Below are positions 30,738 to 64,000 of a stretch of 64,000 nucleotides of DNA, one piece after another; position 1 is the stretch's first letter; each line of letters starts with the position of its first letter. Made by a program: the position numbers and the translations under genes. The notes below the pieces were generated by a model. That model had not been told where the DNA came from, did no database searches, and saw only the letters and a program-made list of their open reading frames with translations. The stretch lies in assembly GCA_015478775.1 (NCBI GenBank), contig JADMKP010000007.1, positions 620,001-684,000 of the forward strand, given 5' to 3'. Origin of the DNA: Fermentimonas sp. Its GTDB lineage: Bacteria; Bacteroidota; Bacteroidia; Bacteroidales; Dysgonomonadaceae.

Positions 30738-30797
30738 TGCACAAAATAACTACATTTGTGCACTTTTTTTGATTTTAGTGCTTGAAAGTTTGCACAA
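30738..30797. promoter_or_regulatory. three TTTGCACAA-like motifs between purN and acpP
   Basis: TGCACAAA (30738-30745) and its inverse TTTGTGCA (30755-30762) form an 8-bp inverted repeat with a 9-base gap, and TTTGCACAA recurs at 30789-30797, where it includes the -33 element of the acpP promoter. Three copies in 60 bases suggest an operator for a regulator of fatty-acid or purine genes; no such factor is encoded nearby. Confidence 0.4.
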
Positions 30798-60087: not shown

Positions 60088-60369
60088 TCATCTTTTTGAT
60101 TGCAGCACATCTCTTAAATCACTTTCTCTGTATCTAATATTATTTCCAATCCTAATGTGCGGGATAAGACCTTCTCTTTTCCATCTATGTATTGTTGGTC
60201 GGCTTATTCTTAGATATTCACACGCTTCCTCTGTGGTAAGTAGAGAGTCAATGTCGTTTTCCTTTACACTTACCACACTTTTAATTGCTTCATCTATAAA
60301 AGACTTGATTACCTCTCTTAACTGTCCTACCGTCAACATTACAATAGGGGTTTCATCTGTAATTCTCAT
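60088..60369 (-). CDS. excisionase-like helix-turn-helix protein
   Basis: A 93-residue protein. The C-terminal half is an HTH_17/excisionase domain: SLLTTEEACEYLRISRPTIHRWKREGLIPHIRIGNNIRYRESDL. The N-terminal 40 residues form a predicted helix (TVGQLREVIKSFIDEAIKS). Such proteins direct recombination or repress nearby genes on mobile elements. The start at 60369 could instead be the ATG ten codons later. It points away from the CRISPR array, only 34 bases from the degenerate first repeat. Confidence 0.75.
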   Translation of the reverse strand: MRITDETPIVMLTVGQLREVIKSFIDEAIKSVVSVKENDIDSLLTTEEACEYLRISRPTIHRWKREGLIPHIRIGNNIRYRESDLRDVLQSKR

Positions 60370-60403: not shown

Positions 60404-61755
60404 TAAATCCTTTGCTTTCAATAAACAGTATCTTTGATACCAACAACAACAAATTGAAGATTTGAAAAGACCTACTGTTGTTGTGAATTGCTTTCAATAA
60501 ACAGTATCTTTGATACCAACAACAACCTGCAATAAAAAAGGGGTAGAAGCTAGGATGTTGTGAATTGCTTTCAATAAACAGTATCTTTGATACCAACAAC
60601 AACCTTACAGCTGATAATTTCTTAACATTAGATGTTGTGAATTGCTTTCAATAAACAGTATCTTTGATACCAACAACAACGGTTATTGGACGGAGTTGTT
60701 GAATGCGGTTGTTGTGAATTGCTTTCAATAAACAGTATCTTTGATACCAACAACAACAGTTGGTGCTAATAAGGAGTTGGCAGACTAGTTGTGAATTGCT
60801 TTCAATAAACAGTATCTTTGATACCAACAACAACTCAATACGATAGCGCATATTCTTAAAATTGTTGTGAATTGCTTTCAATAAACAGTATCTTTGATAC
60901 CAACAACAACCCCACTATTCCGAAATAAAGCCATGAACAAGTTGTGAATTGCTTTCAATAAACAGTATCTTTGATACCAACAACAACAAATTCCCGCAAA
61001 ACCGAAATACATTTATGTTGTGAATTGCTTTCAATAAACAGTATCTTTGATACCAACAACAACTATTTACCTTTGAATTTAACTGATAAGCCAGTTGTGA
61101 ATTGCTTTCAATAAACAGTATCTTTGATACCAACAACAACAGCTTAAACTACAACTCCTTAGCACACGTTGTTGTGAATTGCTTTCAATAAACAGTATCT
61201 TTGATACCAACAACAACCCCGACAGTTGCGCCAACAATAGCAGTCGAGTTGTGAATTGCTTTCAATAAACAGTATCTTTGATACCAACAACAACAGAAGT
61301 AATTAAGGAGGTAAAAGTTCCTTAGTTGTGAATTGCTTTCAATAAACAGTATCTTTGATACCAACAACAACGAGCCCTCAACACCCGCCATTATTTCGCA
61401 AGTTGTGAATTGCTTTCAATAAACAGTATCTTTGATACCAACAACAACTATAATAAATATTATGCAAGCGAGATAGATGTTGTGAATTGCTTTCAATAAA
61501 CAGTATCTTTGATACCAACAACAACTTATCCCAATCATAAAAAAAAGTGCTGTTAGTTGTGAATTGCTTTCAATAAACAGTATCTTTGATACCAACAACA
61601 ACCGGCTCATGCAGCGAAGAATGTATCAGCGGTTGTGAATTGCTTTCAATAAACAGTATCTTTGATACCAACAACAACGATTTTCGTCTTTAACCAAGAC
61701 GTACTTTAGTTGTGAATTGCTTTCAATAAACAGTATCTTTGATACCAACAACAAC
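60404..61755 (+). CRISPR. type II-C CRISPR array, 18 repeats and 17 spacers
   Basis: Repeat (47 bp) begins GTTGTGAATTGCTTTCAATA and ends CCAACAACAAC. Copies start at 60404 (degenerate), 60480, 60557, 60634, 60711, 60788, 60864, 60941, 61017, 61094, 61171, 61248, 61325, 61402, 61479, 61556, 61632 and 61709. The 17 spacers are 29 or 30 bases. The repeat contains GTATC-TTT-GATAC, a small hairpin, and GTTG/CAAC ends. Seventeen copies look identical; only the first 10 bases of the 60404 copy differ. The repeat is shown in the orientation used for II-C crRNAs (GTTGTN start), which is opposite to the cas genes. Confidence 0.98.
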
Positions 61756-61824
61756 TGGATGTGTGTTTTGTACTGACTAGCTGAATGATACGGCTAAATT
61801 TAGGAATAAAAAAAGTTGTTGTTA

Positions 61825-61866
61825 CATGATAAAGAATCCAGCGATTAGGCTGGATTCTTTATCATG
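61825..61866 (-). terminator. 18-bp perfect inverted repeat between the array and cas2
   Basis: CATGATAAAGAATCCAGC (61825-61842) and GCTGGATTCTTTATCATG (61849-61866) enclose a 6-base loop. On the cas strand it is followed by TAACAACAAC then a T run. It lies 11 bases beyond the cas2 stop and is a likely terminator for the cas operon, possibly also for transcripts running out of the array. Confidence 0.6.
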
Positions 61867-61876
61867 GTATTATGTG

Positions 61877-62212
<336 letters not shown>

Positions 62213-62248: not shown

Positions 62249-63154
62249 CTAATCTCTCCTGAAAAACATTTGTAAAGTGAAGCTGTTGTTTGACCAACGG
62301 CAATCATAAGGGGGCTTCTGTCCATCAATTATAACATCAAGCACGGGGACATTGAGAAGCTTGAATTTAATTTCTTGCTTAAGTTCTTCAATACTCTTTT
62401 CTTCATTCATGATATTACAGACCAATTTATCTACAAAGGGTCGATAGGGTTCCATAATATCATCTGCCAAACAATAAGCATTGTATTTATTGCGATGGTG
62501 AATACCTAATGTTGGCAATAATCCACTAGCAACTAACGATCTAGCAACAACTGCTCTTAAAATGGCATATCCGTAATTAAGGAGATTATTTGGAGGTATA
62601 CCTTCACGATGACGGGTAAACCCACCTATTTCGTTAAATAAATTTGCCCAATAGTAAACTGCTGAACGAGCTTCATAATTGTCAGGGTCTCCACTTTTTG
62701 TATCAGAGGCCCAAACCAGCATATTCTTAACTATTGTATTGTTTTTATTTGACAAAATATAGGCTTGATTTCTAATTTTAAACTGAACTGTTTGTTGCCA
62801 AAGTTGCTTTTTTAAAGGGATTGAAGCGTTAATCTGATCACGATATCGTTCTGTTTGTGTTTTATTACCAGATAGAGGCAGCATTAATCCTGTAGGCATT
62901 CGAGAGCTATCACAAGTAATTAGTGCAGAGTTATTCTCCAATAAAGCTTCAATTACCCCCTGAGTTATTGTTATTCGTTTATTGTCAAGTACTATAACGC
63001 CAATATCTTCAATGGGTATAGTTCTTGTTGACTGTTTTTTGAACTCGTCAGGTAAGTTTTTATTGTTCTCTACTTCAGGTATTTTAACTACTAACTGCTT
63101 GTTACTTAAACTCAAGTAAGCAGGATTACCGAAATACAGAGTTTTTTTTATCAT
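62249..63154 (-). CDS. cas1: CRISPR-associated endonuclease Cas1 (type II)
   Basis: A 301-residue integrase for new spacers. Likely catalytic residues E161 (DNYEARSAVYYW), H220 (LGIHHRNKYNAY) and E235 (ADDIMEPYRPF) are all present. The segment GGFTRHREGIPPNNLLNYGYAIL is typical of type II Cas1. It begins 11 bases after cas9 ends. Confidence 0.97.
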   Translation of the reverse strand: MIKKTLYFGNPAYLSLSNKQLVVKIPEVENNKNLPDEFKKQSTRTIPIEDIGVIVLDNKRITITQGVIEALLENNSALITCDSSRMPTGLMLPLSGNKTQTERYRDQINASIPLKKQLWQQTVQFKIRNQAYILSNKNNTIVKNMLVWASDTKSGDPDNYEARSAVYYWANLFNEIGGFTRHREGIPPNNLLNYGYAILRAVVARSLVASGLLPTLGIHHRNKYNAYCLADDIMEPYRPFVDKLVCNIMNEEKSIEELKQEIKFKLLNVPVLDVIIDGQKPPYDCRWSNNSFTLQMFFRRD

Positions 63155-63165
63155 AGGCTTTAGCT

Positions 63166-64000
63166 TTAATATTCACCAACAGATACAATTTTCCCTATAT
63201 GATTTATACGAACTTTTATGATTCCCTTTAATCCATTAGGGGTTTGTATTCTTCTAAAAGTAAATTCTAAATCATTTGTTACGGTAGTTTCAAGATGATG
63301 CCTGAATACATAATATTTAGACCCAATCTTTTGCACTCTATAAAGGTTCTTGCTTATTTGCTGGTAATTATCTGGATTCATAAGATCAACCTCATTCGGA
63401 TCAAAATCATCTGAGGGTAAAACAAACATTTCATTTTGCTTCATTGTAAATAAAAACTCCCAGCCTAAATGTGCATTATACGATTTATCAATAATGGGCA
63501 TTCCTTGATTTACTCTTTCAACGACTTCGTAAAAAGAAACAACAGATTCTTGTAAATTGTCTGCCTCAACTTTGTAAATAGCAACATGATGGTTATTCCC
63601 CGTTTGCACGTAATCTACATTTATTTTCTCTCCTTCCTCTCCAGTTATTTCTTGCCCTAGGTGGTCTTTCTTATGACGTAATGCTATTGCATTATTTACC
63701 CCTGTAATTGTAACTCTTTTTATCGGTATCCCTTTTTCTTTGTTCAACCAAATAGGATTTTCCTCGATGTTTGAAAAGGCTTCTTTTGGGTTTCCATTGA
63801 ACTCATCAAGTCTATCTTGTAAAACATTTCTAACTCCTTCATCAATAACTTTATCAAGCTTTAAGTCTGGACCAATTGGTTTTCTTATAGTAAATATTTC
63901 TTCAAAACATGCAACTTCTTTAAGTGGCTCTCCTTTAAATGTAATTGGATCGTTTTTCAGGGTTTTGGAAGAAAAGGCAACATCACATTTATTGTCATAT
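63166..64000 (-). CDS. cas9: CRISPR-associated endonuclease Cas9 (type II-C), C-terminal part
   Basis: The reverse strand is open from 63166 to the edge of the window (277 visible codons, no start here), so the track's TTG at 63747 is internal. The visible part reads DNKCDVAFSSK..., IFTIRKPIGPDLKLD, ENPIWLNKEKGIPIK, NHHVAIYKVEADNLQESVVSFYE and KYYVFRHHLETTV, which fits the wedge and PAM-interacting end of II-C Cas9 from Bacteroidota. The RuvC and HNH sites lie upstream, outside the window. No csn2 or cas4 follows, supporting II-C. Confidence 0.93.
   Translation of the reverse strand, partial: YDNKCDVAFSSKTLKNDPITFKGEPLKEVACFEEIFTIRKPIGPDLKLDKVIDEGVRNVLQDRLDEFNGNPKEAFSNIEENPIWLNKEKGIPIKRVTITGVNNAIALRHKKDHLGQEITGEEGEKINVDYVQTGNNHHVAIYKVEADNLQESVVSFYEVVERVNQGMPIIDKSYNAHLGWEFLFTMKQNEMFVLPSDDFDPNEVDLMNPDNYQQISKNLYRVQKIGSKYYVFRHHLETTVTNDLEFTFRRIQTPNGLKGIIKVRINHIGKIVSVGEY

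Follow-up and report, generated by a model that had tools for sequence, protein, structure and literature searches.

Type II-C CRISPR repeats of Fermentimonas and other Bacteroidota contain a candidate promoter with the −7 element of their hosts

Each repeat of the type II-C CRISPR array of Fermentimonas sp. probably acts as a promoter of the sigma-ABfr type, the −7 element of which is the sequence TATCTTTG at repeat nucleotides (nt) 26–33. We regard this as the best explanation of the sequence data and estimate its probability at roughly 85%. The array occupies positions 60404..61755 of the 64,000-nucleotide stretch of DNA that was analysed (the window), with the crRNA sense on the + strand, and it consists of 18 repeats, each 47 nt long, separated by 17 spacers of 29–30 nt. 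The repeats start at 60404, 60480, 60557, 60634, 60711, 60788, 60864, 60941, 61017, 61094, 61171, 61248, 61325, 61402, 61479, 61556, 61632 and 61709. Repeats 2–18 are 17 identical copies of GTTGTGAATTGCTTTCAATAAACAGTATCTTTGATACCAACAACAAC; the first, oldest repeat (60404..60450, +) is decayed at nt 1–8 and intact at nt 9–47, TATCTTTG included. In 18/18 repeats this element is located at +25 to +32 from the repeat start (60429..60436, +, in repeat 1), and it agrees with the Bacteroides sigma-ABfr consensus, which comprises a −7 element TAnnTTTG and a weak −33 element (PMC7366714). We assign it as a −7 element from its sequence, its conservation in 65 distinct repeats and the position-specific constraint on it. 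The initial annotation had described GTTG at nt 1–4, followed after 21 bases (N21) by TATCTTTG at nt 26–33, in every intact repeat, and this arrangement is indeed present in 17/17 identical copies. Outside the array, TAnnTTTG occurs in the window 51 times on the + strand and 62 times on the − strand, from which the chance of finding it in one 47-nt repeat on a given strand was calculated as ~3%; GTTG-N21-TAnnTTTG has no second occurrence anywhere in the window. Taken alone, the motif in the 18 repeats of this array is suggestive. Since the 18 copies represent one sequence rather than 18 observations, the motif was tested across other Cas9 loci, and this comparison between loci is what carries the main weight of the evidence.

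The gene content of the locus is that of a type II-C system. Next to the array, on the − strand, are cas2 (61877..62209; TIGR01573, E 2.5e-19), the type II cas1 (62249..63154; TIGR03639 (cas1_NMENI), E 3.9e-88) and the 3′ part of cas9 (63166..64000; TIGR01865, E 2.8e-150); the complete cas9, coding for 1396 aa, is located at 3166-7356 of L002, a stretch that reaches past the window. According to open reading frames and family profiles, only these three genes adjoin the array, and csn2 and cas4 are absent from the operon. Upstream of cas9 and outside the window, a tracrRNA is predicted on the + strand from about L002:7454. Its 17-nt anti-repeat (L002:7454-7470, +), with TATGTTTG just 5′ of it, is a perfect complement of repeat nt 2–18, which in repeat 2 correspond to 60481..60497 (+). 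The array was oriented by this pairing, so the crRNA strand is the + strand and transcription is expected to proceed toward cas2, in line with the forward-strand transcription that had been proposed. The tracrRNA tail TAAGGATTATTCCGTTGTGAAAACAT, 3′ of the anti-repeat (L002 from about 7471), is near-invariant across most of the loci, and Rfam gave zero matches in L002, the tracrRNA included.

The array is decayed at 60404 and intact where it adjoins cas2, and the tracrRNA gives +, so the crRNA strand would run toward the leader. Because the decayed repeat lies at the 60404 end, the oldest spacer would be read first, as is the case in other II-C systems (PMC12080349). Judging from its position and the intact last repeat, the leader probably extends over 61756..61876, between the array and cas2. 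In this leader, where the array and the cas operon converge, an 18-bp hairpin (61825-61866) is followed by a T run on the minus side and may be the terminator of both the array and the cas transcripts. Just past the oldest end of the array, an excisionase-type helix-turn-helix gene (60088-60369, −; TIGR01764) points away from it.

For the comparison, we used 100 more Cas9-containing stretches from the same order and phylum, most of which contain arrays. Repeats were oriented both by the tracrRNA and by their 5′ half, which is conserved, and for nearly all long repeats these gave the same strand. Most conflicts concerned 36-nt repeats, and repeats of this length were left out of the statistic. 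In the 65 distinct repeats of 43–49 nt, TAnnTTTG was counted after nt 18, with dinucleotide shuffles as the null. The exact motif was found in 39/65 repeats on the crRNA strand and in 0/65 on the opposite strand, and it started at nt 23–28 in 38 of the 39. Shuffled repeats led us to expect 2.5 ± 1.5 occurrences among 65, with a maximum of 8. Clustering at 80% similarity did not remove the excess, as 16 of 32 clusters contained the exact motif compared with 1.25 in shuffles (maximum 5). Most of the 26/65 repeats that lack the exact motif differ from it at one position. Allowing one mismatch raised the count to 62/65, which is less telling because shuffles already give 25.7/65. A chance match in an AT-rich repeat, to which the ~3% per repeat and strand in the window leaves some room for a single array, is thus the least credible explanation that we considered, given 39 sense occurrences where 2.5 were expected and 0 antisense ones. 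These counts bear out the proposal that a Bacteroidota −7 element resides in the repeats, on the crRNA strand and throughout the phylum; as expected of a repeat-embedded promoter, every repeat of this array has the element of its host in the 3′ portion, on the crRNA strand. Other loci had been suggested as a check on whether TAnnTTTG and the GTTG spacing are conserved; TAnnTTTG is, and 31 of the 39 exact-motif repeats have GTTG at N18–20, compared with N21 in this array.

Of 12 type I repeats from the order to which Fermentimonas belongs, none has TAnnTTTG on either strand. When genome contigs were scanned for the repeat 5′ half plus TANAAT, the multi-copy matches among those listed were from Bacteroidota and one Ignavibacteria genome; the listed matches from elsewhere were single copies that resembled chance hits, and none of the matches listed represented an array in any further phylum. 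The Ignavibacteria genome (UBA2330; L154, L179 and L188) contains this same long-repeat family with TACAAT and not the exact TAnnTTTG, which is possibly a switch of promoter class along with the host.

The pattern of variation within the motif indicates what kind of element it is. Among the 32 cluster representatives, departures from TATCTTTG numbered 11 and 12 at the two free nn positions, as against 4 at T1, 3 at A2, 0 at T5, 0 at T6, 5 at T7 and 9 at G8. A merely conserved word would resist change evenly, so that the greater variation at nn is the pattern of a −7 element. Pairing with the tracrRNA does not explain the motif either, as TATCTTTG lies beyond nt 2–18. Furthermore, TAnnTTTG is found immediately 5′ of the anti-repeat in 35 of the 56 tracrRNAs that have the conserved tail, and the exact motif in the repeat and that in the tracrRNA are associated by locus (26/8/9/13 in the two-by-two count; Fisher p 0.011, uncorrected for kinship).

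The two sets of elements differ at nn, which is TC in 26/34 repeats and mostly TA or mixed in the tracrRNA promoters. This bias in the repeats, as compared with the freedom in the tracrRNA promoters, suggests that shared ancestry or another constraint is also at work. It is an argument for a different account, in which TATCTTTG was kept for spacer acquisition, with Cas1-Cas2 or Cas9 reading the interior of the repeat, or by shared ancestry, and the array is transcribed from one outside promoter. The repeat ends, which are an acquisition signal, are strongly conserved as well. However, ten exact-motif arrays have letters other than TC at nn and retain TA and TTTG, the bias to the sense strand and the pattern of fixed and free positions are typical of a −7 element, and no TTG-N18-21-TAnnTTTG pair is located just 5′ of 60404 on the + strand. 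We therefore consider this account unlikely. A sigma-70 promoter scan revealed no consistent promoter; the model used in that scan excludes promoters of the TAnnTTTG type.

It had also been proposed that the promoter is packed into a GTATC-TTT-GATAC hairpin, and the region might then be kept for an RNA structure that guides crRNA processing. The hairpin is real in the Fermentimonas repeat, with −2.6 kcal/mol and a z-score of −1.95, but it is not conserved: the full 5-bp stem is present in 3/39 motif-bearing repeats, and the median folding z-score across the 65 repeats is −0.06, no better than for shuffled sequences. Moreover, the motif is retained where the 3′ arm changes, and retention for RNA structure is accordingly very improbable.

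Support for a −33 element is less uniform. In the Bacteroidota DNA of the compared stretches, with arrays masked, TTG precedes TAnnTTTG 55 times at N18, 87 times at N19 and 63 times at N20, compared with a background of about 42, which places the enriched spacing at 18–20 with a peak at 19. N21, with 45 counts, is at background, and GTTG-N21 as the promoter spacing is therefore not supported. The GTTG of the Fermentimonas repeats (60480..60483, +, in repeat 2, and the same in repeats 2–18) is a weak −33 candidate, as its N21 is outside the enriched range. The distribution in the 39 exact-motif repeats was N18 in 17, N19 in 11, N20 in 3, N21 in 4, N22 in 2, N23 in 1 and N26 in 1. An acpP promoter of equal spacing had been reported in the window and was found at 30789 (TTTG-N21-TTACTTTG), so N21 may be tolerated. 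Among decayed first repeats without GTTG, 1/15 have a TTG at N18–20. Being off-peak in Fermentimonas and lost from decayed first repeats, GTTG has a doubtful −33 role here, although from its spacing it could serve as the −33 element in most species. Half of the tracrRNA promoters have no TTG at N18–20, and no −33 motif was seen in F. johnsoniae (PMC7366714). The Fermentimonas array would thus have the −7 TAnnTTTG in common with sigma-ABfr promoters, whereas a −33 element at the usual distance is doubtful.

We propose that the primary sigma factor of the Bacteroidota, of the sigma-ABfr type, recognizes TATCTTTG in each repeat. With this element centred at −7, transcription would start about 11 nt past its first T, around nt 36–39 of the repeat. 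The start had been predicted at nt 38–47; its placement in the 3′ part of the repeat is retained, but that range appears to be somewhat late. RNA polymerase would then move along the + strand in the direction of the leader and cas2, through what is left of that repeat and the adjoining spacer and across the repeat that follows. The primary RNA would comprise a 30-nt spacer, preceded by 9–12 repeat nt and followed by the next repeat. Nucleotides 2–18 of this next repeat would pair with the tracrRNA, for which a similar −7 element upstream of cas9 presumably provides the promoter; processing of the duplex and its loading on Cas9 would follow. With a promoter in each repeat, it is plausible that a leader promoter is dispensable.

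The first repeat would need its promoter half only, leaving the pairing half free, or even favoured, to decay. Decay comparable to that of the Fermentimonas first repeat was found in many related arrays. In 23 decayed first repeats, mismatches amounted to 152/414 in nt 1–18, 22/120 from nt 19 to the motif, 3/138 inside the motif and 6/358 on its 3′ side. This would be the look expected of a repeat that is kept only as a promoter, a role that has been argued for the first repeat of II-C arrays (PMC12080349). The pattern fits erosion from the outer edge of the array equally well, because the bases 3′ of the motif are just as intact, and we therefore no longer count first-repeat decay as proof of promoter function.

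Repeat promoters are known from Neisseria and Campylobacter II-C systems and have been suggested in Flavobacterium via TTG alone. The Neisseria meningitidis repeat reportedly has a promoter of a different class and is said to be shorter than that of Fermentimonas. According to papers that cite Zhang et al. (2013), the N. meningitidis II-C array has a promoter in every repeat, its crRNAs being transcribed individually. C. jejuni is similar to Fermentimonas in that Cas9, Cas1 and Cas2 are its only Cas proteins and every repeat has a promoter box in its 3′ portion; starts have been mapped there, one per spacer (Dugar et al. 2013, PMC3656092). The C. jejuni box, GGTAAAAT, is however of the −10 type and located at the extreme end of the repeat, with starts at spacer position 5 (PMC3656092), whereas 14 nt separate the Fermentimonas −7 element from the repeat end. 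A start within the repeat is accordingly predicted, which would leave about 9–12 repeat nt at the 5′ end of the primary crRNA. In Flavobacterium, likewise a Bacteroidota host, a repeat-encoded promoter with leader-ward transcription was proposed: for F. columnare it was inferred from TTG, with 8 reads within the array toward the leader (PMC8092290), and for F. psychrophilum similarly (PMC10309648). These proposals differ from ours in that they rest on the TTG (−33), name TAnnTTTG for the cas9 gene only and include no survey of the phylum. A promoter in the repeats was denied for Riemerella (PMC5006608), and the B. fragilis II-C system was described without assigning one (PMC5704556). Our literature search found no paper that places TAnnTTTG in CRISPR repeats; in the one paper where TAnnTTTG and crRNA occur together, the motif is not related to the repeats. 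What is new here is the −7 element in repeats, its occurrence throughout the phylum and the predicted starts inside the repeat.

We lean slightly toward a more general model, in which the II-C systems of Bacteroidota have swapped the −10 box seen in II-C repeats elsewhere for the −7 element and repeats of 46–48 nt place the start inside the repeat, leaving a constant crRNA tag of 9–12 nt that is trimmed or tolerated by large Cas9s. Such trimming or tolerance is predicted because the 5′ end would fall in the repeat and not in the spacer. If true, this would be a crRNA 5′-end pathway with a repeat tag that is undescribed for II-C in the literature searched. A different arrangement is seen in the 36-nt repeats near small Cas9 genes (L090, L091, L093–L095, L097 and L098), the 3′ end of which is TAGATT or TACATT. 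Such an end corresponds to TAnnTTTG without its last two bases, or to a −10-like box, and touches the spacer as in C. jejuni; the start would then lie within the spacer.

If correct, the presence of a promoter in each repeat would explain why promoter finders built for other organisms missed it, for example in the Riemerella study (PMC5006608), and would show anyone working with Cas9s from Bacteroidota how the crRNAs arise in nature and which 5′ ends to expect. It would also mean that II-C repeats evolve along with the sigma factor of the host. Tied in this way, an array would be readable only by hosts that recognize its promoter, and the transfer of arrays between phyla would be limited.
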